A program made the translations under genes and the position numbers. Below the pieces are notes generated by a model. That model did no database searches. It had not been told where the DNA came from and saw only the letters and a program-made list of their open reading frames with translations. Below are positions 9,046 through 36,530 of a stretch of DNA of 64,000 bases, piece after piece. The DNA lies in contig CP136064.1 in the NCBI GenBank assembly GCA_032622095.1, positions 261,991,863-262,055,862 of the forward strand. Direction: 5' to 3'. The stretch is from Siphonodentalium dalli. Lineage: Eukaryota; Mollusca; Scaphopoda; Gadilida; Siphonodentaliidae. Positions within the stretch are counted from its first letter, which is position 1, and each line of letters starts with the position of its first letter.

Positions 9046-9437
9046 TGTAATTCGTACGATATACATTTATTGCAATGTTTCGAGATTGACATGCGGCTTC
9101 GGTGAATATTAACTTCCTCGAAACAATGCAAGTGTTTCATTATATGATCTACCAATGTTATCAAGCCCATTAGGCCTGAAATATCTTACTGACCCGTGTA
9201 TATATGTACATGGATCCATCGAATGCCAAACAATGCGATTCAACCGGGCAAAATTTAACACAGGGGTTTATATCAACCAACAATTCCTATTAATAAATCA
9301 TGACGTGACATGAGCTTGTGATTAACCCATCATCGCTTAATTATTTTACTGCACTCGTTAAATTTACATTAAATAACCCGGTGCTACTCAAACATATTAA
9401 CACAAGATGTGTGAGAGTAATTTATATTATATTTCAG

Positions 9438-9489
9438 ATGTCATATACGGGAATTGTTATATTTGGCACAGCCACAGCCATGAAAACAG
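9438..9489 (+). CDS. SLC5-like symporter, exon 1 of those visible
   Basis: The exon encodes MSYTGIVIFGTATAMKT plus 1 nt, matching the SLC5A8 helix LYTGIVIYAPALALN at about residue 141. It is preceded by TATATTTCAG and followed by a GTCGGT donor. The frame continues without a break into the next exon (phase 1 joins two bases). The apparent Met at the start is internal to the protein and is not a translation start. The family consensus APALALN is altered to GTATAMK, which is unusual but keeps the small-residue character. Confidence 0.8.
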
Positions 9490-18199: not shown

Positions 18200-18899
18200 T
18201 AATAGGGCATTTTAGCCATATATGCGATATTGCTTGCCTGAGAGCGACCTAGTCCACATTAAAGGGGGCCTATCGAATGGTAGGCATTTCCTTGAGGCAG
18301 GATACAACACCACGAGTTAGTAAAATTCACATATTGTGTATTTGGGCTTGGTTTTTACTACATGTTTTTTATATTTAAAAAAGGATGAATATTTCCGTTA
18401 TTTAGTCAATTTAATCATTCGAAAAGGAAGGAATATTTCTGAAATAAAAGTATTATTAGTGTCTAGTTGGCTACGGTTACCCCCTTCAGATTGTATTATA
18501 TTGATAAGTTATATTCTGGTATATAATCAACATCACGTGGCACGTGTTACTCAGATTGATAACCATTATTTACCTCAACCCCGATTATATATTGTTTGAT
18601 ATATAATCCTTGGCTTATTGGCTTGTATTACATACATTGGTGATACGTACTGGTAGCACTAGCAGTGGTGACATTGATCAGTGTCACACGTATCACAGTT
18701 ACAATATCAGCAGGTGTGGCGTCGTTCTGCAATTCAGTGTGGTGGCAATCGGTCATAGTTGACATGGTAGCTAGGTATGTCGCTCGCCGCTTTACTCGCC
18801 CAAATGACTACATGGAGACAACAATCTACTGCACTGCATATCACAGCCAAGTATACCATCTACCCATGGTGCCAGAACTGTATGAGCCCTTTGTTTCAG

Positions 18900-18980
18900 G
18901 GTGGCTACAAAGCAGTGATATGGACTGATGTACTGCAGACTGTGATCGTCTTCGGTGGTATATTCGCCATACTCATTAAG
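18900..18980 (+). CDS. SLC5-like symporter, exon 3
   Basis: Twenty-seven codons in phase 0-0 encode GGYKAVIWTDVLQTVIVFGG followed by IFAILIK. The GG-KAVIWTDV-Q block is one of the most conserved signatures of the SLC5 monocarboxylate/vitamin branch, and the following residues form the next membrane helix. The acceptor is TTTGTTTCAG and the donor GTTTGT. An 87-codon frame at 18665-18928 overlaps this exon in another frame and is a shadow. Confidence 0.95.
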
Positions 18981-19082
18981 GTTTGTTAGATGATAGTGCC
19001 ACGTGGTCATGATTTTACTCTGTTGTTTCTTTCATCTGAATGTTCTTTATTTGCCTCATACAGAGAGGACAAGAGCGCCGGG

Positions 19083-19483
19083 TTAACCCTTTACCCAACA
19101 GAACGGCCCTGTGCCAAAGCATTCTCTTATATATGCGAGTCGACCATAGGTCGCCTCGCATATATAAGAGAATGCATTGGCTTAACACATTAAAAATTAT
19201 AAAATTGTTAAAGAATGTAAGAAAAAATTGGTAAAAAGTGTTAAAAACAGATTTTTTTTAGGTCAATGCATTCTCTTATATATGCGAGGCGACCTATGGT
19301 CGACTCGCATATATAAGAGAATGCATTGGCACAGGGCATAACTGTAACCATCACAATGTGGTCAATGAGCCGGTTCCAATGATATCCATATTTATATGGT
19401 TTTATTGAGACAGACCCAAGATAATTTAGGCTGTTGCAGCTTTATTTGGCCGTTTTTGGCCGGTTTGTGGGGTAAAGGGTTAA
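19083..19483. mobile_element. piggyBac-like MITE with two inverted hairpins, copy A
   Basis: The element is bounded by TTAA on both sides, with terminal repeats CCCTTTACCC and GGGTAAAGGG. TTAA duplication with CCC-starting ends is the hallmark of piggyBac transposons. It contains two palindromes of about 66 bp (19111-19181 and 19262-19335) in opposite orientation, each pairing CATTCTCTTATATATGCGAG with its complement. No transposase. It lies in intron 3. Confidence 0.85.
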
Positions 19484-19669
19484 GGCACATACATATATCT
19501 TGTATCGTGTGTGGTCATTGTCAACGACAGTCACCTGACTTGCGTGACTATTCCGCCCACACGTACACGATCAAACCTGTTTTGTGTCAAACATGTAGTA
19601 TTACAAAACATGTAGCTGCTTAAGATTACCAAAATGAGCAATAAACTCTATGCAGGCAATGTTTTCCAA

Positions 19670-20290: not shown

Positions 20291-21052
20291 TTCTCACACT
20301 GACACACCCAATAAGGGTACAAAAATATGTAAAATAAACTTCGATATTTTGACATTTTGAAATATTTCTTTCTTCGACTGTGTAACTTTGATATGTCCAT
20401 AGTTTAGAAATTAATTTTGGGATAGTATCAAAATACACATTCAATATTATGTTATTAGTTATTCCAACAGGATCTGAGGCATTAACCATTTCTTTACTAC
20501 ACAGATTATCCCATAATGTATAAATAAATATTCATTGGAACGGTCCATTATTCATTCAGACAAATTCATATGGAAATATAAGCAGACGATATGTATGACC
20601 ATTTTGGCCGTATTTCTATTAATTGGTTGGTAATGTTCAGAAAATAAGTACAACAAATGGCTGTATGTTTATCTCATCGCTGAAACATTTTAAAAGGGAT
20701 ATACTCATCAATGCATATTTAGTAAAGGCGACTTAGTGTGAGATAGCATGTGTGAACTACATGTGGCCATTACTTTCGGGCAGTGTGCACCATCATTGAA
20801 AAAAAAATGACATAATGAACACTGTATTTACTCGGGGAGAGCTTCCCGATGAATGGCAACAAGCCATATTTCCGACTAAATCCTGAAAAGTTACCCATAA
20901 TTCTGCTGTGGTTAAGGGAGTCGATTAATTAGGGCATTACTGTACAAGCATTTCCATTATGAAATATTCAGATAAATTCAATAAACGACCATCATGACAT
21001 GTTCAGATAATTTAGTAAATAAAGGGTTAAATGATCTATATGTTTTGTGCAG

Positions 21053-21126
21053 GGGACAATTGATAGTGGCGGATTCAGTGAAATGATATACATGGCTAAT
21101 GAAGGAGGAAGACTAAAACTGTTTGA
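21053..21126 (+). CDS. SLC5-like symporter, exon 4
   Basis: The exon encodes GTIDSGGFSEMIYMANEGGR plus LKLF and two bases of the next codon (Asp once joined). It matches the family loop QGGISTIL-DAYDGGRL-F. The GGR motif before the following proline-containing segment is conserved. The acceptor is TTTTGTGCAG and the donor GTGAGT. Starts in phase 0 and ends in phase 2. Confidence 0.92.
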
Positions 21127-21261
21127 GTGAGTCTACATTACGCCGTTATTCTCTCGAATCATGGTAGTCGATTTATACGTAGATGGCCGTCGAAAACACT
21201 TTTCAGGTACAACAGTAATGTCTTACCATGTGTCTTTCGTTTGTGGTCCGGATGACAATTA

Positions 21262-21651
21262 TTAACCCTTTACCCAACAGAAGGGCCCTGTGCCAATGCA
21301 TTCTCTTATATATGCGAGTCGACCATAGGTCGCCTCGCATATATAAGAGAATGCATTGGCTTAACACATTAAAAATTATAAAATTGTTAAAGAATGTAAG
21401 AAAAAATGGTAAAAAAAGATTTTTTTTAGGCCAATGCATTCTCTTATATATGCGAGGCGACCTATGGTCGACTCGCATATATAAGAGAATGCATTGGCAC
21501 AGGGCATAACTGTAACTATCACAATGTGGTCAAGGAGCCGGTTCCAATGATATCCATATTTGTATGGTTCTATTGAGACAGACCGAAGATATTTTAGGCT
21601 GTTGAAGCTTTATTTGGCGGGTTTTGGCCGGTTTGTTGGGTAAAGGGTTAA
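21262..21651. mobile_element. piggyBac-like MITE with two inverted hairpins, copy B
   Basis: TTAA-bounded, with the same ends (CCCTTTACCCAACA and the inverse TTGGGTAAAGGG) and the same two internal palindromes as the copy at 19083-19483. It lacks a short AAAAGTG-type segment between the hairpins. The two copies are nearly identical, which implies recent mobility. It lies in intron 4, 135 bp downstream of exon 4. Confidence 0.88.
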
Positions 21652-21654
21652 TAT

Positions 21655-22320
21655 TTGATAGAAGTTTTATGAAATTTGTTACATGGTCAACATATGGAAA
21701 AACTCTGCCAAAGTTCGAATTTGGGTCCGGTTCATTTCTAACAGATATATGCCGCTTTTATTCTTAAAATTTGCTGATTGTTTTGGCTGATAAAATACTG
21801 TAGTGGCAGTTATCCAATTGTTTCAAATTTAATATGAGACTTCGAATTTGGATCCGATGCTATCTGACTGAGTTTTGCACCTTTAGATTTTGTTGATGTT
21901 GATTAACCACACAGTGCTTGTATCATTTTGGTAAAAGAAGTATGACTGTATCTTTGAGTTAATGGATAGATCGTTATCTCAATAATGTTCTCGCAGTCAT
22001 GATAGCCCATTTTACTAAAAGGTGTTTGTCCCTCAAAAACAATGTTAGGAACTCTAAACTGTCAAACCACGCATCTTCCATTTGTTGTCTGGATGAGGAA
22101 TTTAAACATTTGACAGAAACTATGATTCGGTATATGGTCAACATTTGGAAAAAATTGGCCCAAGTTCAAATTTGGGTCTGATTAATTTCTAATGGATATA
22201 TGCCCTTAATTCTTAGGATTTGGTGATTGTTTTGGATGATAAATGTAGTTACAGTCATCCAGTCGCTTCATATCTAACTGAAACACATTTAAGTATGAGT
22301 GTAGTATTAGCTAATGTGTA
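21655..22320. repeat. Diverged direct duplication of about 150 bp in intron 4
   Basis: ATGGTCAACATATGGAAAAA...ATTTGGGTCCGG...GATTGTTTTGGCTGATAAA at 21685-21795 recurs with substitutions at 22134-22245. The intervening sequence carries a third partial piece (TTCGAATTTGGATCCG). No coding content. Confidence 0.6.
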
Positions 22321-22888
22321 GATTAGTATATAAGATAAATCCAAAACACTTTAATTAGCTTTTCAACATTCTCAAATAAGTTATAATTACATTATTGCCT
22401 TCATTAGAATACAACTAGGTCTATTGATATATACATTTCCACTAGAAATAGAAGTTTTGTGCACTTATTTTTACTGGCGTTTACTTGCTTGACTTTAACA
22501 AAGCCAACAACAAAATGGCCATCTTTTCGGGAGGCGTGTGACCCATTATTGGTTAATCAGTATAATAATGCATTACAATCAATCCACGAGCTCATATGAT
22601 TGAAGATGTTTTTAACAACGATAGTGATAAAATAGTCGAATGCAGGTTGTACATCATGTTAAAACCAGAAGATATGCCATATAATGAAACAACACAACAA
22701 AAAAGCTTTATGATATAATAATTTGGCCATGCACGGTCGCAACAAAGCAATGAATGTCTTGGTGTATTTCATAGGATATGTCAATCATACATTATAATGT
22801 GACACTAACGTGGTTATAGAATGTAATAGGCTATACTATTTTAAATCATGGTCGACAAATCTGTGTACTGATTTATTCTGTTTTGTAG

Positions 22889-23020
22889 TTTCCGTACAAG
22901 TCCATACCAACGACAAACATTTTGGTCTCTTATAATTGGGACAACGCTCAGGTATCTCGGTTTCAGCCAAACAACCGTACAGAGAATCAATTCAACACCC
23001 ACTGTTACGGATGCAAAAAG
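22889..23020 (+). CDS. SLC5-like symporter, exon 5
   Basis: The exon begins by completing the Asp codon from exon 4, then encodes FRTSPYQRQTFWSLIIGTTL, RYLGFSQTTVQRINSTPTVT and DAKR. It corresponds to the SLC5A8 stretch PNPLQRHTFW...QVQRY. The QR-TFW motif, the following helix and the VQR motif that opens the cytosolic loop are all present. The acceptor is TTCTGTTTTGTAG and the donor GTGATT. It enters and leaves in phase 2. Confidence 0.95.
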
Positions 23021-23689
23021 GTGATTTGAAAACAGGCATGTATGCTTATGGGTATGACAACTGTCTGCTTACACTTTTGAATGAGTAGTTGGGTGATGTT
23101 TCGCTTGAAAATAATTATCTGAACATCTGCGGGAACTACTCATTTATGAGTATTTTGTTAAGGAGGTTAATATCAATCAGGGATATAATAAAATGCGGGC
23201 TGGTGCCAGGTTATTTCCATTATGATCGCGGGTGCCATACAGTCACAAGAAAGTACACACAGCACATTCTGAAATTACACTACTCTACCGAGTACATCAA
23301 TATGTACAAACATACTTGTTCACATGCAGTTTGTTAATAGTGTGCAATGAGGAAAACGCGCAACACCGTTGCGATTTGTCCAGGAGGGTGATTCACCGTG
23401 ACCCACTCAACCGAAAGGTCGAGTGGCGAGGATTAGTGAGCGCTTTTGTGTAATCATGGTGGTAGCAGTTTTATCAAAACCTTACAAAATACGACAATGA
23501 ATCACCATGACACAACATGGATAACCGACATTCACTGCGAACCTTCTACATGTATATATCCAACGGGAATTGCATTGCATAGATCCACGATTACCACAAA
23601 ATTGTAATAAAAGTTTGAAGAAGTCAGGACAAGACATTTATCAATATTAAGTTCTTTATGCTATTAACTAAATCATGTTTTGTAACGAT
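23021..23689. other. Start of intron 5; nothing identified
   Basis: No motif-bearing frame. The two overlapping open frames at 23089-23453 have no family resemblance. Confidence 0.5.
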
Positions 23690-24062
23690 TCTCGGTGGCT
23701 CGCGGAGATTCTCTGTGGTTCACGGTGATTCTCGGTGGTTCGCGGTTATTCTCGGTGGTTCGTGATGATTCTCGGTGGCTCGCGGAGATTCTCTGTGGTT
23801 CACGGTGATTCTCTGTGGTTCACGGTTATACTCGGTGGTTCGTGATGATTCTCGGTGGTTCGCGGTGATTCTCGGTGGTTCGCGGTGATTCTCGGTGGTT
23901 CGCGGTGATTCTCGATGGTTCGCGGTGATTTTCGATGGTTCGCGGTGATTCTCGATGGTTCGCGGTGATTTTCGATGGTTCGCGGTGATTCTCGGTGGTT
24001 CGCGGTTATTCTCGGTGGTTCTTGGTGATTCTTGGTGGTTCGCGGTGATTCTTGGTGAGCAC
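23690..24062. repeat. Minisatellite, 20-bp unit, about 18 copies
   Basis: The unit is approximately TTCTCGGTGGTTCGCGGTGA, with transitions such as CGGT to CGAT or CTGT. The 105-codon minus-strand frame crossing it (REPPRITANH-like repeats) exists because 20 is not a multiple of 3 and the repeat lacks stops. It is not taken as a gene. The array lies in intron 5. Confidence 0.92.
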
Positions 24063-24855: not shown

Positions 24856-24991
24856 AGTCGTTTTGTTGATGATTCCGATGTATGTAGCAGTGACTAGTTT
24901 GTCTATTTTCCAAGGAGTGGTAGCATATAGTTACTACCACAAAAAGGGCTGTGATCCAATAGAGTCAGGTGAACTCGACAATCCAAACCAG
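24856..24991 (+). CDS. SLC5-like symporter, exon 6
   Basis: The first base completes an Arg codon. Then come VVLLMIPMYVAVTSLSIFQG, VVAYSYYHKKGCDPIESGEL and DNPNQ. This matches the family helix followed by the extracellular GL-LYSRYHDCDP loop, including the conserved Tyr-Tyr and Cys-Asp-Pro. The acceptor is ACATATTTCAG and the donor GTCAGT. It ends in phase 0, immediately before the MPY helix of exon 7. Confidence 0.95.
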
Positions 24992-25339
24992 GTCAGTAGT
25001 TAGTCTCTGATTGTTAAATATGGGTTGTGATAATATGGAACACACAACCAGCCACCCATCAATAATCCGATTCAACATATCGGATGATTCGACGCGACCC
25101 ACCAATGAAACAATAAACATTATGTGCGTTTTTCTGAAATGACAAATTTTGTTCGCTGCACTGTACGTAGTGAATTGATGAGGTTAGAGGGAGGTTCTCC
25201 ATTGGGCTGTCTGCCTTGAAATTTCGAACTCCCCCCATGTTGCGAAATAAGCAATTATCCAACTGGTACCTCAAATGTTGAACATTTCCAACCTGACAAC
25301 TCCCTAATGTTGGAGAATTTTAAACGTTTAGCAGTTTTA

Positions 25340-25560: not shown

Positions 25561-25660
25561 TGCACACTTTTCATTACTTGGTTAAGGACATGCTCAGTAA
25601 GTACCTCAGCTAACCAAATTTAGGTCAATATAGAACCGAGACCCTATTAATAATGTTCGG

Positions 25661-25750
25661 TTGATATAATTGTGAAATATGCTTACAGATTATGCCTTAC
25701 ATGGTATTGGACATGTTCAGCAGGTACCCGGGGGTAGCCGGACTCTACTC
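25661..25750 (+). pseudogene. Partial tandem copy of exon 7 with its acceptor
   Basis: This 91-bp block repeats the end of intron 6 (TTGATATAATTGTGAAATAT, GCTTACAG) and the first 62 nt of exon 7. It differs at the MFSR/IFRQ codons and stops at GGACTCTACTC, where the genuine copy starts again. It has no donor of its own. Splicing to its acceptor would read LYSLI and then TAA, so any transcript using it would end prematurely. Confidence 0.9.
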
Positions 25751-25779
25751 GTTGATATAATTGTAAAACATACTTACAG

Positions 25780-25868
25780 ATTATGCCTTACATGGTATTG
25801 GACATATTCCGCCAGTACCCGGGGGTAGCCGGACTCTACTTATCATCTATACTCAGCGCATCTCTAAG
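25780..25868 (+). CDS. SLC5-like symporter, exon 7
   Basis: The exon encodes IMPYMVLDIFRQYPGVAGLY followed by LSSILSASL and two bases. It matches the family stretch [26 protein letters not shown]. The membrane helix carries the small residues that precede the serine-rich Na+ site region. The acceptor is ATACTTACAG and the donor GTATGA. A truncated duplicate of this exon lies immediately upstream, and only this copy has a donor in the right frame. Confidence 0.95.
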
Positions 25869-25893
25869 GTATGACATATTGGTTACACACTCG

Positions 25894-26032
25894 TTAACCC
25901 TTTCATGACGGCAGCTGCGCTGGTGTATCATTAATTATCCTGTGCACTCTCTTATATAAGCTAGCCTACCCAATGGAATTTGGCACGGGATTTTCGCAAA
26001 CTTTTAGGAAGCTCCAGTCATGAAAGGGTTAA
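25894..26032. mobile_element. Short piggyBac-like MITE
   Basis: TTAA on both sides, with ends CCCTTTCATGAC and GTCATGAAAGGG. The 139-bp body includes CTGTGCACTCTCTTATATAAG, a decayed relative of the hairpin arm in the larger family members. It lies in intron 7, 25 bp after the exon 7 donor. Confidence 0.85.
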
Positions 26033-26205
26033 GTGATCATGCTAATTTACTATACTGCCGGGGTCCTGTTGAATTGTTATGATGTTGGTGGGTCATGCTA
26101 ATTTACTATACTGCCGGGGTCCTGTTGAATTGCTATGATGTTGGTGGGTCATGCTAATTTACTATAATTCCGGGGTCCTGTTGAATTGCTATGATGTTGG
26201 TGGGC
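26033..26205. repeat. Three tandem copies of a 57-bp unit
   Basis: The unit contains CATGCTAATTTACTATA, CCGGGGTCCTGTTGAATTG and CTATGATGTTGGTGG. A single inverted relative lies at about 26985-27030. Intron 7. Confidence 0.9.
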
Positions 26206-26374
26206 CAATGAATGTAGATAAAGGCACGGGCGGCGTTCGTTACAGAAATATTAATATTTGTTCAAATCGCCATCAACAGAAGGAATATTAAAATATATAT
26301 AGTTTTGTTCATATGCCAAACAATCAGCGCGTAAATAGTATATTGTCGTCAAGACGTACGATGGTGTAAGTAAA

Positions 26375-26600
26375 CAAGAGCCTGCTCGTGTTACAGCAAT
26401 TTTGCTTCTGTTTACATAACACAGCGAAATTCTATTGCTTAATCACAGACAAATGATATAAACGCTCTTTATTATTTCCATATCAGGAAAACAGTAACAA
26501 ATAACGCTCTTTATGTTTACCATATCCGGATCTAAACAAAAGTCAGGTTCTGTTAACGTTTTTTGCTTTTGTTTACATAACATAGGAAAAACATTTGATG
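26375..26600. repeat. Direct duplication in intron 7
   Basis: GTTACAGCAATTTTGCTTCTGTTTACATAACA at the left is matched by GTTAACG-TTTTTGCTTTTGTTTACATAACA at the right. Two AACGCTCTTTAT boxes lie between them. Diverged, non-coding. Confidence 0.55.
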
Positions 26601-27034
26601 ATAACATACTGTTTATGCCATATTTCTGATTGGTATAAGAACCAAGTCTGTCTATGATTTACTATTCTTTCTGTTTATGGCCCGTTTCTTTAAGAAGTGC
26701 CGTTATTTTTCACAAGTTGTCATGTTCATGTCCATCGTGTAATCTGATTGATTTGAGAAATTTGTATGAAATATTCAAAAGCATATACACTTTAAAATAT
26801 GTGAATACGGGCTGTGTTCGTAATAAAAATTCCAAATATTTATTACAGTCGCTATTATTAAAATATTGATACATGTATGTGCTCGTGTGTTTCTTACAGA
26901 TACTGGCTCTTTCTCAAACCGCTCTGATTAGTCACCTCGAAAATGACAACGGTATATTTAAAAAAAAAAATATTTGGCCATGCCAGCATCATATCAATTC
27001 AGCAGGACCCACCAACATCATAGTAAATTAGCAA

Positions 27035-27715
27035 GACCACTTTACCAAGGTTGAAGGGCAATGTTCTCTGAAAGACTTACTTAGCTTTACAGAACTTTAT
27101 TAGATGTCTTCAATTTATCGCACAAACGTTCTTTGTGGTGCAATGGCATGGAAAAACTAACAGCGGACGTATTTTAGAACAAAATGAAACTTTTTCGATA
27201 TAAATTCCCGTTACCTCCAGATAATATCTCGACAAAACTAGTTTTATAATGAGCATCTAGCAAGAGTTGAAATGCGAACTGAGTTTCTCCCCTCACTCGT
27301 CTGTGAAGTATTTATCTCCCCATAGTTTGTATCCATTTTACAAAATATGGGCTGTTGCCCGGTGCATATCACATGCGGTATACCTAAATGGAAGTTACAG
27401 GAACGTAACCATTTTCGATAACATCAACGGATCCACTTTTTAAAAAGATGTCCCTGTATTGAATATATCCAGCCAATTCCATTGAGATGCGATGTTCATT
27501 GTTGAGACGTTCATGCGGACAAAGAAATATGGAAACAAAGGGAATAACACCAGAATGAAAAATGCAAACAATACCGGTAAAACCGTTGGCACCGAAAGCC
27601 GTGATAATGAACATACAGGCCAGATTGTATTTAAATACGAAGACCCATGGTTGAGATGTCTGCTAGGAGGGAGGACCGACTGTATATAATCCAGCATACC
27701 CACCCTTTTATTCTG
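27035..27715. other. Intron 7, middle; nothing identified
   Basis: Overlapping open frames on both strands at 27384-27742 show no recognisable domain. No RNA gene was seen. Confidence 0.45.
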
Positions 27716-27719
27716 CCAT

Positions 27720-27970
27720 GGGTGTATATTTACCGTACACATTAAGCCCTAACATTCGGCACATTGAACTGAAAGCCTCCACTGAGTGATATTTATAATC
27801 AGAGATGTGCGACAGGGCGTGGGGGTTTGTTGGGTGTCTAACCCCACAACTTGGGTAAAAATTTTCAACAATTGTAAACTTCATGCCTGACACAACACTG
27901 TTTGGAAATTGTACACCACCGTAGGTTGGCATTGTTCTCATTATTTGGTATTCGAACCAGCGATTAGTTG
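27720..27970 (-). repeat. Dispersed repeat family R1, copy 3 (inverted)
   Basis: On the minus strand it reads ACAATTTCCAAACAGTG...GTGTCAGGCATGAAGTTTAC...CCCAACAAACCCCCAC, the same order of blocks as 1715-1990. Confidence 0.6.
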
Positions 27971-28280
27971 GGACATCTACTATACTCAACAGAAAATATC
28001 CAATTAAAGAATTAATATGAGTCAAGAATGAGAGTTAAATACACCCACGTAAACAAAGTGCCACGTATAACAACCTACTAATTATAACGAAAATGAGTAA
28101 AATGCTTAATCCATTTACTCATTTTCATTATAATTACCATGTTGTTTTACATGGTTCATAGAGTACATAAGTGTAATTTTCACTCATCCCTGACTCAAAT
28201 TTATTTATTTGTTGCATATTTTCTGTTGAGTATTGTAGGAGATGGCCCCATAAATTACTGGATTTAGGTACAGTCTCCCT

Positions 28281-28358
28281 TTAACTCTTCCATGACTTGA
28301 GCTTTTTGAAATATTTGCGAAAACCCTGTGCCAAAGCATTCTCTTATATATGCGAGTC
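28281..28358. mobile_element. Left-end fragment of the piggyBac-like MITE
   Basis: It begins TTAACTCTTCCATGAC and ends within GCATTCTCTTATATATGCGA. The rest of the element is missing. Confidence 0.6.
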
Positions 28359-28964
28359 TCCCACAGAACAAGTAGCTTATTGTTCTACGTTTGGTACCCA
28401 CCAGCCACATCCATGTTTATAATACTTCATGCACTTTATAATCGTTACTTTTACTAACTTATGTTGATCATTGAAAACGAATACGGGATACTTGACTGCC
28501 ATTATCCTTGGCATATGCCCCATGATATATAATCACCGTATAAACGTTTTTACATGGGGGTTTTGTTGTTCTTCAGTGAATTATGTCCCTTGGTTTGCAC
28601 ACACAAAACGCAAAATGTTAACCAATGTTCGACTTTTTTCAAACCAAGGAGACCACGACAGATCAAACTTAATGTCATATTTGAAACATATTTGAAGACA
28701 TATTTGAAATAGAAACCTAATCGATAACAATTTACATATATTGTCTCAAGCGCAGATGATAAAAACAAATCAATACGTGACAGGCTGACACACAGCTAAC
28801 GCCAAATGTAGAGAGCTGGATAGCCCGCACTCCTCGCGCGGTCCGGTAGCTAACTTGACCTAACACAAAATACAGTGCCGCGTGAATGCCGTCTGGTGAT
28901 TGATACGAATTATTGGTCGAACTTGCAAAACAATATTTTACAGTATGTTTCAAGTAAGAATATC

Positions 28965-29024
28965 CCAACCCTAACCCTAGCCATAACCATAGCCCTAACC
29001 CTGACACTAACCCTACCCCTAGTA
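28965..29024 (-). repeat. Degenerate interstitial telomere-like tract
   Basis: About ten imperfect units of CCCTAA (with variants CCATAA, CCCTGA and CACTAA) lie on the + strand, so the TTAGGG sense is on the minus strand. The degeneration and internal position indicate an old insertion or break-repair scar, or simple expansion, and not a chromosome end. Confidence 0.85.
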
Positions 29025-29527
29025 CATATGGAGAAATGAGGGGGTGTGCTTTCGAGTATTCTTACATGAAGTATATATCTATTTTACTCCGTAAAATTTA
29101 TTTTACCAAAGCTAACGATATGAAGTAACACTTCTATAGTTCCGCATGTGAAGGGGCTACTAACACATTGCCCTAAAATACCTGTTCATAAGCATAATTT
29201 TCGGTCTGTAAAATTGGTCCTAAAAAAAAGATATATTACTAATTGTTTTTATTTTTTTTTTAGATTTTCCTTTTTTTTGGGGTGAATGTTTTTGGGTATG
29301 CTTAAGCATGCTATAGCAAATTTAAAAACAAACTGGGTAATTCCTTAGGGGCATGTTATAACTCAAAACTATCACCAAGTATTAATAGTAATAATTTTGA
29401 TGCCCATGAAAAAACGTAAGATTCCCTGGCAATAAACCTACAAAATAAGTCTGTTAAAGAATATAAGAAAAAAATATTAAACTTGTAAATAATTGTAAAA
29501 AATAATAACAAATAATGAAAAATTGTT

Positions 29528-29648
29528 AGGCCAATGCATTCTCTTATATATGCGAGGCGACCTATGGTCGACTCGCATATATAAGAGAATGCATTGGCAC
29601 AGGGTATATGGGTTGATACAAAAATCGGACCTGGCACTGAAAGGGTTA
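29528..29648. mobile_element. Right half of a piggyBac-like MITE
   Basis: A complete hairpin (GCATTCTCTTATATATGCGA with its complement) is followed by CACTGAAAGGG and TTAA at 29645-29648. The left end is not recognisable. Confidence 0.7.
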
Positions 29649-29734
29649 AGCATTCTGTTTATGGCACATAGTAGCTTTCTATACAGATATGCCCGCACAG
29701 GAATGTGTAAACGGAAGCTACAATGTCAGCTATG

Positions 29735-30030
29735 ACGGTAGCTGCGCTGGCGCAACATTAAATATCCTGTGCCAATGCATTCTCTTATATACGCGAGTCG
29801 ACTATTGGTCGCCTTGCATAAATAAGAATATGCATTGGCCTAACAATTTTATAAATGTTTCTTACGTTCTTTAACAATTAAAAAAACAAATTCGTATATT
29901 CTTTATTAGTTTTTTTTTATCATATTTTTCTTACATTCTTTAACAATTTTTGTCATTTGTTCTTATATTCTTTAAAATGTTTTTTTTGCATTTTTTCATT
30001 TTTTCTTACATTTTTTAACAATTATAACAT
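29735..30030. mobile_element. Left half of a piggyBac-like MITE with T-rich tail
   Basis: ATGACGGTAGCTGCGCTGG and ATATCCTGTGCCAATGCATT match the left end of the 25894 element. A hairpin with several substitutions follows, then repeated TTTTTCTTACATTCTTTAAC as at 19670-19890. Confidence 0.65.
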
Positions 30031-30084
30031 ATACTATAAAATTAGTTTTCAGTCCTCATACAACCCGAGAAATCGTGTACAGCT

Positions 30085-30168
30085 TTCTCAGCTAAATCAG
30101 ATTGATACACCCTAAATTAAAACCTTCCTCAGATAAATCAGTTTGCTGCACCCTAAATTAAAACCTGG
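30085..30168. repeat. Two tandem copies of a 45-bp unit
   Basis: Both copies carry TCAG-TAAATCAG and CACCCTAAATTAAAACC. Intron 7. Confidence 0.8.
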
Positions 30169-30441
30169 TCCTTCAAAAACTGCTGTGGAGCCTCAATATT
30201 TCAAATAATGATAACAGGTTATAGTTATAGTTTGAGCACATAATAACCAAGCTATACGGTACATATATATATACAATGAGGCCGAAAGTCTACCTATCTT
30301 GCTGAAATGTTAATGGAGGGTAGCCACCATAGAAAACTCAGGAAAACAATTACAGGGCTCTTAATTTCTATGTTTGGAGGGGAGATGGAACAGTTGCCTC
30401 CTTAAAGGGACAGGCATGACTTTTTCGTCGTTCGCGTGTGC

Positions 30442-30804
30442 ATTATATATATTTTCAGCACCGTTTCCTCAACTCTATTCATTATATATCTGTTCAGCAC
30501 AATTTCGTCGACTCTATCCAGTGTGTTTTCATTATATATCTGTTCAGCACTATTGCGTCGACTGTATCCAGTATGTATTCATTATATATAATTTCAGCAC
30601 TATTTCGTAGACTCTTTCCAGTGTGTATTCATTATATATATATTAAAATTTCAGCACTATTTCGTCGACTCTATTCAGTATGTATTCATTATATATAATT
30701 TCAGCACTATTTCGTCGACTCTATTCAGTGTGTATTCATTATATATCTTTCTAGCACAATTTTGTCGACTCTATCCAGTGTGTATTCATTATATATCTTT
30801 TCAG
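30442..30804 (+). repeat. Tandem array of exon 8 acceptor and exon start (seven decoys)
   Basis: Units start at 30442, 30481, 30531, 30581, 30631, 30688 and 30738 (50 bp typical, 39 and 57 bp variants). The eighth, at 30788, is the genuine junction. Each has a pyrimidine-poor ATTATATAT tract, a T-rich stretch, CAG or TAG, then the exon start CACAATTTCGTCGACTCTAT or a variant. The decoy exon starts are 30459, 30498, 30548, 30598, 30655, 30705 and 30755. By frame, every decoy leads to a frameshift or an early stop; the in-frame ones at 30598 and 30655 hit TAG. The array therefore arose by tandem copying of a splice junction. Confidence 0.93.
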
Positions 30805-30917
30805 CACAATTTCGTCGACTCTATCCAGTATGTCCGCCATCATTTGTGAAGATATCACCAGACCATTAGCTGGGCGTATCACTGATTACAAAGCGAGACT
30901 GATTGCACAACTATCTG
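30805..30917 (+). CDS. SLC5-like symporter, exon 8
   Basis: The first base completes the Ser begun in exon 7. The exon then encodes TISSTLSSMSAIICEDITRP, LAGRITDYKARLIAQLS and one base. With exon 7 this gives LSTISS, equivalent to the LSTVSSSINA segment of SLC5A8. In solved relatives such as vSGLT, serines in this helix help hold Na+ (family knowledge applied by position). The ED(I/L) pair that ends the helix is conserved. Donor GTACGT. The correct acceptor is the last of eight tandem copies, chosen because only it keeps the frame and gives the conserved MSA...ED sequence. Confidence 0.95.
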
Positions 30918-31399
30918 GTACGTCCAATCAGATGTACCTGCATATATAAAAAACTGCCGCCTATGTTTCCATAGTGTTACGATGGCCACGCCCACTCAAT
31001 CAATGTGTTCATAAAATAGTATAACGACCTTGCGGTAATTTTCCAATAACCGCATTCTTTGGCTATAATAAGAAATATAATAATGTTTTGGCTATAATAA
31101 GCATTACAAATTTTGTATAGACTTTTCCAGACACAACTGAATAAATGATATCTTGATAGACAGCGGTGATTGTTGACACAATTTGATGTTCTGTTATTAG
31201 TGTTTAAAAACAAGAATTCCAACACGCTGTATCTCGTCACTGGGCGATTAGTGATAATGGACATAAGAACAAAGTCCATTTATTTTTTCATGTTCTTTCT
31301 GGTGATAATGTAACACCCGACAACTTTGTCGCCGAGCGTTTTGGTGGTTCGGTTGCGCCGCTACTTCATCGGCAAGCCACGTGGGTGGTCATCTGATAT

Positions 31400-33060
31400 T
31401 ACTTGCCACAGGACCTACACGGATAAGTGTTACTTTTGACTCCTCGTCTCTCGCTCAACTGTTTCGCTGTCACCACATTCGTTTTGTAGTGATGAAGGAA
31501 ACATTATTCCTGCCACTCTTGCTACTCTCGTCGCTAACTTATACAAGCATATTATGGTGTCTCTCTGAGACTAGTTATCTTGCTTCAGGGTACATGCAAA
31601 GAAATGATCGGGTGACTAAGGCAAGACTACTCCTTGGTGGCTCGTCAGTCAGACCTTCTCTCGTTGTGGGTCGCTGAACGAGTCAGTTCCTCAGTTTTTG
31701 TTTCACAACAAAATTGCTCATTGCCAACATTTCCCGTTCGATGTCTTCAACCTCTTGGTTGATACCTGACCATTCTTCCAAATGAGTACTGATTTTCTGT
31801 CACATGCCGGGGTCGTTTGCGATGGCACTTATGACGCTCATGGCTGGTCCACCGACCCAGCCGTACACAGTGGTCTGACTTCCTGCCTTTTTATATGAGA
31901 AATTTCACTACATTGTGCGATGGAATACGGTTCACTTGTTGAATGGCTATTGTCCGGTCTTGGGTAAACCACTCTGTTATCTCCAGATTGTATTATGTCT
32001 AGAGGAGAAGGAGCTGACTGTCGGGTGGAGTTTTGAAGTCGGTACAGTCTTGTTGGAGATAACATTTAATTGTCATATCAAATGAAGAGATGTGCCGTTG
32101 GTGACCGGAAATATTGAGATATGTCCACGGTTGATAAATCACAACCCGTCTAACGACGCCTCTGGGATGGACTCTCCGCAGCTAACTCGAATCGGAATCG
32201 GGAAGGGAATTAGAATGATAAATGAATCTAGAATGGTGATATATTCGTATTTATATCACAGGAAGATTGTATTACTGCTAAAGATAGCTTGGTGCTATGG
32301 CTCAGATAATTGATTTAACATGTGGTGAACACATGTTCCGCATATTTTATGTTAATTAGTTCTGGTCATCATTTGACCGTTGTGCTCGATGCAGCAAGGT
32401 TGGATTAATAGTTTGCTTTTATGCGCTCATATTTTCCTTGTAGTCCGATCTAAGACGTAAATCTGTATAGATAATGCTGAATTGGATATATATAATAGAG
32501 CGGTAAAGAATATGTGGGGTAATAATGGATTATCCCAGTCGCAGCTCCTGTTTTCACCTCCTTAGCTTTATTTGCTTCCTTTGAATCTTTATATTTCACT
32601 GCTTTTTTCCTGTCCTTGATAGCGTCAGCCTTTGTGTCCTTTTGTGCGTCCAACTTCTATATCTGTGTCGGAAGAAATTGGACTAATCACTTCACCTGGA
32701 TCCCGTTCGTTCCACGTGCTGTCGGAGTCCTTTCATTTAGGATTTATGTCTGTTCCATATTTCTGGCGGAACTGATACTTATGCAGAAGGCTTGTAAAAT
32801 CATGTGCCACGACACCGACGGACTCGTATAGCGATTCAGATAAATCTGGCGATGCGTTCAAAATGCACACAGGTTTGCACTTGATACCACTCATGCTACT
32901 GGACCAATATGGGCATCGATTGTCTCTTCCGTGGTGAGGTATTCACCACAAAGAGGGCAATTCCGAGGTTCGAACGATTCCTTGCTCTAGTTGCACTTGG
33001 TTTCTGTGTATCGAGGCCATGGTTAATGTTCCTTCTCACTTCTTCCAAATATTCCTTCCA
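31400..33060 (-). pseudogene. Decayed minus-strand coding sequence with zinc-finger-like piece
   Basis: On the minus strand short coding-like stretches occur in changing frames. Near 32960 a frame reads EPRNCPLCGEYLTTEETIDA followed by H, a C-x2-C...H pattern. Near 32840 one reads SESLYESVGVVAHDFTSLLH. Near 31750 one reads EEWSGINQEVEDIEREMLAM, heptad-like. Stops and frameshifts separate them. The plus-strand 98-codon frame at 31381 is probably a shadow. This looks like a dead gene or transposon protein inside intron 8 of the symporter gene. The family was not identified. Confidence 0.3.
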
Positions 33061-33559
33061 TTAACATTTAAAATTGTCTAGAATCGCAATTTACATTACA
33101 ATTTCATATCAAATAGTCTTGGTACACATTTTTGAACTGCGTTAATAAATACAATCTATATTAGCCCAATGTATTGAGTAACATGATTGATAACAAAACA
33201 TTGGGGAATACAGTAATGAATGTTTGAAAGTTCTACATTCTTTTCTAATTCTGGCTGTAATTCTGCAGGCCATCTTGTGTGATGTGTACACAGCACAATT
33301 AGCACACCCCGTTCATCAATTGCAACATGTATGCCATTGCATCGCAAACATATATCATGCCATGGATCTCTACTCTAGCTAACGCCCGTAGATATAATAT
33401 TCCACCTGTACAAAACCTTGGAACTTTTTTGAAAGTTTTGACAGGGAAAAAAAATAACGCGGGGAATATGTTTTTTATACATATTATCTTCCTTAATAAT
33501 GTACTTCAATGTAGATGAAGGTCCCAAATAGAAATTTCACGATTTTAGTGACCGTGTGC

Positions 33560-33740
33560 GATTTTGCTCTGCGTCCCTTACAATTATGAAATTACTCCTG
33601 GGTAATTAATTCATTGTTTATTGCCACATCGGCTCAAAACAATTCACAGAAAATCATGCCATTTCGAGTTGGGACATTCACCTACATTGAAGTACATTAC
33701 TAAGAACAGATACTAACTAAGAAATATATGGGTGGGGGCG
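33560..33740 (+). repeat. Dispersed repeat family R2, copy 2
   Basis: GGGTAATTAATTCATTGTTTATTGC, a CGAGTTGGGAC box and TAAGAAATATATGG match 2480-2640 in order and orientation. Confidence 0.55.
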
Positions 33741-33837
33741 ATACTCTGGCTCTTATCTTTCACGGCGAAAGGATATCGGACTACAATGTTTGAACATATA
33801 TATATTAAACTATTATCCCCTCGGTTATCATTAATTA

Positions 33838-33967
33838 AGAAATGAATGTAGTGGGTGTGTAATATTGGAGGTTACGGCGCTGTGGTCGTTGGGGTACATT
33901 GTGGGTACTAAATGTGGCCCTACCGACCACACCGCCTTAACACACACACCCACTACATTCATTTCTA
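33838..33967. mobile_element. 130-bp palindromic MITE-like element
   Basis: The ends are GAAATGAATGTAGTGGGTGT and its exact complement, with weaker pairing inwards. It is short, carries no ORF and lies in intron 8. Class unknown. Confidence 0.65.
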
Positions 33968-34283
33968 ATATTTATATAGCTTTTTGATGATTTATTCCCG
34001 CAAAAAAGCTGAATGTATTCTTATATATTTTCACAAAATGGCCGATAATTTGAGACTAGCCCACGCAACACATTAAGTCAGCCCGATACAGGATTTCCAA
34101 ACTCTTAGCTACGATAACGTGATTGATATAAATAACTTGCCTCAGATGGAATTCGGCTGAACTTTGAAAAGCACGCCCAATTATTATGCTTTATTAATGT
34201 TAAGGCCAGATTATGTAACTATTTGTTCTTCCTGCTCGTGTTACACTCTATGTAAATATTCACATCTTATACATGTATTGCAG

Positions 34284-34354
34284 TCGTTGTTACTGGCGCG
34301 ATGTGTACTGGGATGGCGGTAATATTCTCACAAGTCGGCGGTACTCTTATTCAG
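34284..34354 (+). CDS. SLC5-like symporter, exon 9
   Basis: Two bases complete a Val codon. The exon then encodes VVTGAMCTGMAVIFSQVGGT and LIQ, matching family SVVYGALCIGMAALASLMGALLQ. The glycine-rich hydrophobic sequence is a transmembrane helix. The acceptor is CATGTATTGCAG and the donor GTAAGT. It ends in phase 0. The exon end and donor are partly duplicated just downstream. Confidence 0.94.
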
Positions 34355-34458
34355 GTAAGTATATATGCTAGTTAACCAAATCCGTCAGGCAAGTATGCTA
34401 GTTAACCAAATCCGTGGTACTCTTATTGAGGCAAGTATGCTAGTTACCCAAATCCGTC
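34340..34458 (+). repeat. Tandem copies of the exon 9 end and donor region
   Basis: The genuine GGTACTCTTATTCAG with GTAAGT is followed by ATGCTAGTTAACCAAATCCGT. A second block then repeats AGGCAAGTATGCTAGTTAACC. A third repeats GGTACTCTTATTGAG with GCAAGT and the same downstream sequence. The extra copies have GC where the real donor has GT. Reading through the true donor hits TAA within seven codons. Confidence 0.9.
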
Positions 34459-34459
34459 A

Positions 34460-35270
34460 ACTGTTCCATCAGTCACAGTACTTCAAACCCAAACTGCAAG
34501 ACGACACAGTTCAGCCCCTCGATACGCTCTCTAACCACTGCCTCCACGTACATATATGTTCATTTTCTATTGTTGAATACTCATTTGCTATAACAAGCCC
34601 AAACTACATATATTACATCGAAAAATTACAATATATTGTTAATAGAAGTCGAAAATGTCCGATATTTGTCGGCAAATTAGTGCGACGGAATAATTTCATA
34701 CGCTCTGTTTATCGTTTATTGATTCCCATGCATTTGCAAGCCGATGCATGATTTAAAACTTATTATGTTCAAAGGGACATTCTCTGTTTTGCATATGTGA
34801 TAACTCGGCTTCGGTAAAATATATCCATGCGATATAAATCGCAAAAAGCCGGACTATGCTTCCGATTCTGTTGACGTGTTGCCGTCTACATTAGGCGGTA
34901 CCGATGAAAATTGCCATTTTTTATGGGATTTCCAAAATCCAATATCTTAATATTGAACGACCTTTAAATATTTCTGGCGTGGTGGCAGTGGTCAGACAGC
35001 GTAGCGAGGGGAATGGACTCTGCCTTGCAGTTTATTTTAAACCACATAATGCCCAAATGTGGCTCTTCAATGGCACATAATATGCAATACAATATTGAAA
35101 TGTCGTGCGGAATATAAATGTCAGGACATGGAAAGTATTACCAATGCCCTGTTTTGTCGAGCAGTAGAAAGACGGTCCCAAATTTCTTTAGCTTCACCTC
35201 CACCCTGTTTAAATTGTTAGCTATTACAATCCAACTAACGTTTTTAAGCCCTGATATAAAGCTAGTGAGT
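34460..35270. other. Intron 9, first part; nothing identified
   Basis: The 128-codon open frame at 34365-34751 begins inside the duplicated donor repeats and has no recognised motif. It is treated as chance. Confidence 0.45.
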
Positions 35271-35274
35271 TCAG

Positions 35275-35432
35275 AGCAACCACCAAGGGTGCTTATACCT
35301 CAGGCAGGTGAAGGACATCATATAATAGTAACCAACAAGGGTGCTTATACCTCAGGCAGGTGAAGGACGTCATATAATAGTAACCACCAAGGGTGCTTAT
35401 ACCTCAGGCAGGTGAAGGACGTCATATAATGT
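35275..35432. repeat. Three tandem copies of a 57-bp unit
   Basis: The unit contains ACCAAGGGTGCTTATACCTC and AGGCAGGTGAAGGACGTCAT, then ATAATAGTAACC. The copies are almost identical. Intron 9. Confidence 0.92.
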
Positions 35433-35789
35433 TTTCTATATCCATCAGTGATTTTTCAAGATCGCGGGTATAGATTTTGGAGAAATTGACACGTGACTTA
35501 CGGTTAGCAACCGTGTGGAGATTGCAAAAAACGCGGAATTGGAAATGAAGCTTCACGATAAAAATGAAAGTAACTACTTCACAACTTACGAAGAATTCAC
35601 ATGTTATTTAAGTCTATTACATTCATTTAGATCAATTTTGTTGGTCAGTTTAATGAAAATTAAAAATGAAGAAGTCATGACGATAATCCACGACACGTCT
35701 TGTCAATTTGGCTTGTCGTCTCCGTCGTGAACACTGCATGATGTTACATAAACTATTCTTAGCGTGGTGGAATTGTTCATCTACTCAAG

Positions 35790-36443
35790 CATTACAGATA
35801 ACAGTGGTTTTACTAAGTGGAATAATCTAATCAAACATTACATATAGCAGTAGTTTTAAATAAAACATTATTACAGATAACAGTGGTTTTACTAAGTGGA
35901 ATTGTACATCTACTCAAGCATTAGAGATAACAGTGGTTTTCTGAGTGGTATCAGCTAATCAAACATTACATATCACAGTGGTTTTAAATAAAACATTATT
36001 ACAGATAACAATGGTTTTAAACAAAACATTATTACAGATAACAATGGTTTTACATCAAGCATTATTACAGATAACAGTGGTTTTACTAAGTGGAATTGTT
36101 CAGCTAATCAAACATCATTACAGATAACAGTGGTTTTAAATAAAACAATATTACAGATAACAGTGGTTTTACATTATTACAGATAACAGTGGTTTTATTA
36201 CAGATAACAATGGTTTTAAACAAAACATTATTACAGATAACAATGGTTTTACATCAAGCATTATTACAGATGACAGTGGTTTTACTAAGTGGAACTGTTC
36301 AGCTAATCAAACATTATTACAGATAACAGTGGTTTTACTAAGTGGAATTGTTCAGCTAATCAAACATTATTACAGATAACAGTGGTTTTACATTTGTACA
36401 GATAACAGTGGTTTTATTACATATAACAGTGGTTGTATTACAG
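35790..36443 (+). repeat. Tandem array of exon 10 acceptor and exon start (close to 20 copies)
   Basis: The core ATTACAGATAACAGTGGTTT is the end of intron 9 plus the first bases of exon 10 (ITVV). It recurs from about 35794 to the genuine junction at 36443. Longer units also carry ACTAAGTGGAATT, the next part of exon 10, followed by GTTCAGCTAATCAAACATT. Spacing varies between about 20 and 55 bp. The decoy whose exon would start at 36402 adds 42 nt in frame with no stop (ITVVLLHITVVVLQ before the normal start). Others, such as those starting at 36376 and 36323, are out of frame. Confidence 0.93.
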
Positions 36444-36530
36444 ATAACAGTGGTTTTACTAAGTGGAATTGGCGCTCCAATGATTGGTGTTTTCGTCGTC
36501 GGCATCCTCTGTCCATGGATCCACGGAAAG
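36444..36530 (+). CDS. SLC5-like symporter, exon 10
   Basis: Twenty-nine codons in phase 0-0 encode ITVVLLSGIGAPMIGVFVVG followed by ILCPWIHGK. They match family [30 protein letters not shown]. The G-PM-G core and the ILCPW end of the helix are conserved. The acceptor is GTATTACAG and the donor GTAAGG. The start is the last of the tandem acceptor copies. An alternative in-frame start at 36402 would lengthen the preceding helix by 14 hydrophobic residues. Confidence 0.94.

Follow-up and report, generated by a model that had tools for sequence, protein, structure and literature searches.

Tandem repeats spanning splice junctions at four consecutive exons of an SLC5 transporter gene in the scaphopod Siphonodentalium dalli

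Results and Discussion

Exon-edge arrays in the window gene

We analysed a stretch of 64,000 nucleotides (the window) from the scaphopod mollusc Siphonodentalium dalli, which is part of contig C4 in a genome of 2.23 Gb and nine contigs. It contains a gene of the SLC5 transporter family in which four consecutive exons, 7 to 10, each carry a tandem array reaching across one of their edges. Spliced together, these exons give 360 bp without a stop, and protein matches of the 120-aa product identified the gene as SMCT/SMVT/NIS-like. The product aligned with SMCT1 (7sl9_A) at an E-value of 6.5e-21 with a single 1-residue gap, and it also matched the multivitamin transporter SMVT (E 2e-16) and the iodide transporter NIS (E 3.1e-15). 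The Pfam domain SSF (PF00474) was detected in it with E 9.7e-7 and 28.4 bits, above the cut-off of 22.8.

A first-pass annotation, made from the letters alone, had listed a partial exon 7 copy with its acceptor, seven decoy acceptors at exon 8, a donor side copied twice at exon 9 and close to twenty acceptor copies at exon 10, and our recount agreed with this description. One 91-bp copy lies upstream of exon 7, in an array that Tandem Repeats Finder (TRF) placed at 25660-25840 (period 91, 92%, score 313). Seven decoy acceptors, all with AG, precede exon 8 (TRF scores 492-511), and 18 precede exon 10, 15 of them with AG (TRF scores up to 444). At exon 9, both intronic copies of the donor side show GC in place of GT; the second holds 15 bp of the exon end (34416-34430) and the other approximately 3 bp, and they were absent from the 57 rows that TRF returned for the window. 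A by-eye comparison showed no likeness between the four repeats. The proposal that each array arose from its own junction was borne out, with the units of exons 8 and 10 confined to three neighbouring gene copies (see below). The arrays had also been said to begin exactly at the splice sites, which was not the case: the junction sits inside the unit at all four exons, with approximately 61, 29, 15 and 15-28 exon bases included at exons 7, 8, 9 and 10, respectively.

Exons 1 to 6 were located by tblastn with an SLC5A8 probe. The corresponding pieces of the probe were colinear with the DNA and placed exon 1 upstream of the window; exons 2, 4 and 6 were individually weak and were assigned by their order. 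Exons past exon 10 were not found with this probe.

Table 1. Arrays and exons of the window gene (positions counted from the first nucleotide of the window)
Feature	Position	Strand	Remarks
Exon 7 acceptor-region copy, upstream	25661..25751	+	28 bp intron and ~61 bp of the 89-bp exon
Exon 8 acceptor copies, seven upstream	30441..30786	+	units 39-57 bp, mostly 50; TRF and dissection
Exon 9 donor-side copies, two, intronic	34386..34459	+	GC donors at 34389 and 34431
Exon 10 acceptor copies, eighteen upstream	35780..36443	+	units 21-53 bp; TRF rows 35767-36458
Exon 7, 89 bp	25780..25868	+	acceptor cttacag/ATTATG, donor CTCTAAG/gtatga; protein match
Exon 8, 113 bp	30805..30917	+	acceptor cttttcag/CACAATT, donor CTATCTG/gtacgt; alone E 0.14
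Exon 9, 71 bp	34284..34354	+	acceptor tattgcag/TCGTTG, donor TTATTCAG/gtaagt; alone E 0.41
Exon 10, 87 bp	36444..36530	+	acceptor tattacag/ATAACAG, donor GGAAAG/gtaagg; alone E 0.062
Exon 2 core	9408..9482	+	tblastn E 0.14; edges approximate; edge test negative
Exon 3 (GGYKAVIWTDVLQ...)	18876..18980	+	tblastn E 6e-4; ends hand-set; edge test negative
Exon 4 core	21047..21124	+	tblastn E 2.1, weak, placed by order; edge test negative
Exon 5	22881..23012	+	tblastn E 7e-5; end hand-set; edge test negative
Exon 6 core	24887..24994	+	tblastn E 0.027; edges approximate; edge test negative

Neighbouring gene copies

When the exon 7-10 protein was used as query, two more gene copies emerged on this contig, copy A on the minus strand approximately 104 kb before exon 7 of the window gene and copy C on the plus strand approximately 170 kb after its exon 10. 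Both carry the repeats of exons 8 to 10, and only copy C also carries the exon 7 repeat. Counting the true one, there is one exon 7 unit in copy A, two in the window and four in copy C, and there are eight exon 8 units in each of the three gene copies, which match unit by unit. The intronic copies at exon 9 number four in copy A and two each in the window and copy C, and all of them have GC. The exon 10 array extends over approximately 3.4 kb in copy A versus approximately 0.66 kb in the window. Exon 8 itself is identical (113/113) between the window and either copy, and the 120-residue product of the window gene differs from that of copy A at two residues and from that of copy C at three.

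We searched the whole genome with two-unit DNA probes for the arrays of exons 8 and 10. Matches were confined to the three gene copies, a result that is strong but not absolute as the search passes over simple repeats and words of very high frequency.

In the window gene, the true exon 7 has two linked variants in common with intronic copy 2 of copy C: an A in the intron part (gtAaaacatac) and, in the exon part, ATA (isoleucine) for ATG (methionine). Among the seven exon 7 units compared, no other had both variants, and both sites are G in the true exons of copies A and C. An intronic unit may have become the coding end of exon 7 in the window gene by unequal exchange or deletion, which would have replaced methionine with isoleucine; alternatively, two transitions may have occurred by chance. 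It is possible, and proposed here tentatively, that exon-edge arrays act as two-way reservoirs, in which unequal exchange would carry units and their variants into the exon so that exon ends would evolve in concert with their decoys.

Arrays in SGLT-like genes of the same genome

The same kind of array was found at exon edges of SGLT-like genes, for which eleven loci were considered and six arrays were printed and read. At the exon 8 donor of gene C9a, a 58-bp unit that includes the last 46 bp of the exon and the donor is repeated in eight perfect copies within the intron, which suggests a recent expansion or strong homogenisation. Genes C9d and C9a pair in the tree of the SGLT-like genes, and their exon 8 donor arrays have unlike intron parts (61 versus 58 bp), which suggests that the two arrays are of separate origin.

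Among the ten genes with both exons, the intron between exons 8 and 9 is missing in C3, C4 and C6, and all seven others have it. In the tree, of whose seven inner branches two are starred and two open, C3 groups with C3b (90/90) and C4 and C6 group with C9a and C9d (83/86). We considered a gain of this intron via tandemly duplicated splice sites and rejected it, as the tree favours at least two losses as the simpler explanation. With this moderate support, the intron seems to be ancestral and to have been lost at least twice.

Frequency of local copies at exon edges

A point was scored as positive if it was spanned, with 8 bp to either side, by a direct copy located within 1.5 kb (E 1e-4). The tested edges came from the window gene and the eleven SGLT-like loci, several of which are partial; for the latter, the best match per exon type and locus was kept at E < 1e-5, and extra partial exon copies and the second exon 10 in C9d were left out before edges were counted. 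Outside the window gene 14/160 edges were positive; on an even grid across these loci, limited to points over 250 bp away from any edge, the figure was 289/1089. Splice positions for the SGLT-like exons, as for window exons 1-6, are approximate (nearest AG or GT outward from the tblastn core, or hand-set), and some positives are weak or oddly placed (exon 2 of C3, exon 10 of C9e and exon 3 of C9c). The edge rate was under the local rate in 10 of the 11 loci (Wilcoxon p 0.007). For the window gene, 4/20 edges were positive versus 43/289 grid positions over the initial 39.6 kb of the window plus the 10 kb preceding it. Six 4-kb stretches elsewhere, hand-picked at round coordinates and not random, gave 103/582 positive grid positions with a range of 6 to 37%. 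Coverage by TRF arrays with a period of at least 7 amounted to 11% in the window's initial 39.6 kb, to 6-37% in the SGLT-like loci and to 1-38% in the six other stretches.

A distance profile for the loci outside the window gene (the exon centres alone include it) rose from 5/86 at exon centres and 14/160 at edges to 15/160, 22/160, 23/160 and 30/158 at 60, 150, 300 and 600 bp intronward, respectively. The profile of the window gene was flat, with 4/20 at the edge and then 4, 4, 6 and 4 of 20 inward. The trend held with stricter spans of 15 and 25 bp. Acceptors and donors contributed equally to the 18 positives among 180 edges in an earlier edge test (nine each), and a first, looser rule had given 17/148 edges versus 95/320 random positions. 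In an earlier draw of positions, the 14/160 and 4/20 edges were set against 112/440 positions in the SGLT loci, 22/150 in the window and 10 kb upstream, and 43/240 in the six stretches; the Fisher p-values, 4e-6, 0.013, 0.11 (not significant) against window positions and 0.51 for the window edges, are too sharp, as positions within a locus are non-independent and the six stretches were then sampled in their middle 1 kb only.

Decoy splice sites

We checked 23 AG decoys in the window, 15 at exon 10, seven at exon 8 and one at exon 7. All except one of them bring a stop into frame (22/23); the sole open decoy, 42 bp ahead of exon 10, would extend the product by 14 residues. Taken alone, the stops would also fit decoys that lower expression. 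Over the three gene copies, 50/68 exon 10 decoys keep AG and 18/68 have lost it, and the two AG columns rank among the four most variable of the 21, mismatching in 11 and 7 of the 68 decoys; the array of copy A was read in part for this count, and units homogenise, so that the events are non-independent. Judged from these sequences, selection that keeps decoys is not visible at exon 10.

Relation to known systems

The first-pass annotation knew of no named system of this kind. Tandem repeats across exon-intron boundaries do, however, bear a name in amphioxus, where two papers describe them as "mirages" (PMC3087553, PMC3902484) and credit the name to a 2002 Adh paper. Mirages are reported there for Adh3, the globins BflGb6 and BflGb9, TnC and PGBD5, the last two being added by PMC3902484. 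Their units measure 10-72 bp in Adh3 and 150-160 bp in the globins, and reverse transcription PCR (RT-PCR) supports undisturbed normal splicing in lancelets (PMC3087553). In our literature search, with most subscription papers beyond its reach, the term turned up for lancelets only (PMC3087553, PMC3902484).

The window arrays resemble mirages in several respects. The tandem unit includes the exon-intron boundary at all four sites, both types of boundary are duplicated (acceptors at exons 7, 8 and 10, the donor at exon 9), the units of 21-91 bp are within the reported range, and AG or GT is retained in many units but lost in others, with 15/18 decoys at exon 10 of the window having AG. As to splicing, the reading frame is intact across the predicted true junctions. 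For mirages, length instability between alleles or in the soma is a criterion; the comparison made here, between neighbouring gene copies, showed differing copy number. Unlike in the published cases, the arrays affect a run of four exons in a single gene, and three copies of that gene are available for comparison. The hosts in print are cephalochordates, and the 2.23 Gb, nine-contig genome here does not fit Branchiostoma, with approximately 0.5 Gb and 19-20 chromosomes. Searches for three marker families that might point to the host lineage (PF14830, PF16915 and PF00372) gave no hit, a result without weight in either direction. Nine chromosomes are also reported for a scale worm (PMC10352628), to which nothing links the window.

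Two further systems show partial likeness. In the Rogers model introns are gained by tandem genomic duplication, which brings duplicated splice sites adjacent to each other (PMC4974935, PMC3443670, PMC3087553). The arrays likewise set copied splice sites side by side; unlike in the model, no new intron is shown in the window gene, and the array-bearing intron between exons 8 and 9 of the SGLT-like genes seems ancestral. Human segmental duplications contain internal minisatellites with a mean unit of 30 bp that alter exons and introns and sometimes activate cryptic splice sites (PMC2812944). Here, too, minisatellites lie in duplicated genes, but whereas the human repeats alter expressed exons and introns, the predicted spliced exons 7-10 hardly differ among the three copies. 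A human DDX3Y minisatellite near a splice acceptor (PMC3039753) was dismissed as a parallel, being described as an upstream promoter repeat with no duplicated junction.

Origin of the arrays

We consider it very probable (roughly 0.86) that the window arrays are mirage-type minisatellites which arose by ordinary local tandem duplication and are tolerated where the true junction survives. Short stretches of DNA would be duplicated locally all over the genome, via slippage or unequal exchange, and would then expand, shrink and homogenise. A duplication straddling an exon edge would persist if a functional junction and the frame are preserved in the unit adjoining the exon body, and exon-breaking duplications would be purged, as the lower rate in and near exons suggests. 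The spliceosome would normally use the true junction, for which the lancelet RT-PCR is a precedent (PMC3087553). The lack of an edge peak together with the lower rate near exons fits uniform duplication combined with selection against broken exons, and the arrays look more like a side effect of a genome rich in repeats than like the outcome of a process aimed at exon edges.

Several observations weigh against this explanation. Four consecutive hit exons form a visible cluster in one gene, although 4/20 positive edges correspond to p ~0.09 at the edge rate of the other genes and 0.34 at the background rate of the window. Exon 8 donor arrays are present in three SGLT-like genes (C9a, C9c and C9d), and a hot spot at exon 8 donors is possible, the sample being too small for a test. 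Coding changes between the gene copies are mostly replacements (0 silent and 2 replacement for the window versus copy A, 1 and 3 versus copy C); as far as these few sequences go, the gene copies do not show selection on the exons, the changes being too few to measure it. All tested edges furthermore belong to one superfamily, SLC5.

The cluster of four exons and the recurrent hits at exon 8 donors would also favour a duplication process aimed at exon edges, e.g. one tied to splicing or to co-transcriptional structures, and the rates alone would be compatible with strong selection masking its products. Such an edge-favouring mechanism, one of two offered by the first-pass annotation, appears improbable given a distance profile without an edge peak, an edge rate (14/160) below that of evenly spaced positions (289/1089) and lower in 10/11 loci, and junction offsets that differ from unit to unit among the arrays. 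The other proposal, decoys maintained by selection as splicing regulators, for instance by routing some transcripts to nonsense-mediated decay, would account for the AG kept in 7/7 exon 8 and 15/18 exon 10 decoys of the window, for an exon 8 array constant at eight units in three gene copies, and for the stops brought by 22/23 decoys, which decay-inducing splicing requires. We regard it as quite unlikely, since the AG columns of exon 10 are among the most variable and 18/68 decoys there have no AG, the decoy donors of exon 9 are GC in all three gene copies, and copy A, with one exon 7 unit only, has no decoy at that exon.

Insertion of minisatellite-bearing mobile elements next to the exons is conceivable in a genome rich in dispersed repeats, but it is very unlikely when the units hold coding sequence of the same exon and those of exons 8 and 10 are confined to three gene copies; for these two exons the whole-genome unit searches led us to reject a mobile-element origin. 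Tandem arrays are error-prone in assembly, and a mis-assembled mirage is on record for a lancelet draft (PMC3087553). An assembly error is here highly unlikely because the arrays recur in both of the other gene copies, which share the contig, with unit-by-unit similarity, diverged units and other copy numbers.

With ordinary local duplication as the preferred explanation, mirages, in print for lancelets only as far as our literature search goes, are now placed in a large genome unlike that of Branchiostoma. The present data provide a rate for them here, approximately 9% of the tested edges outside the window gene and under the local background, and this low rate argues that a special exon-edge mechanism is unnecessary. 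Such arrays are still of importance as material from which cryptic splice sites can arise; should the exon 7 case prove true, coding changes would also stem from them.

Other repeats in the window

Downstream of exon 10 the window contains a 21.4-kb array of a 31-bp unit in approximately 695 copies (39636-61063). Further minisatellites lie at 1-531 (34-bp unit, 15.8 copies) and 23687-24057 (20-bp unit, 18.5 copies), and no exon of the window gene was placed inside them. A dispersed repeat with fold-back-like arms (CTCTTATATATGCGAG and its reverse complement), near-identical between loci, is present at approximately 19070-19490, 21260-21670 and 29500-29610 of the window as well as in several SGLT-like loci.

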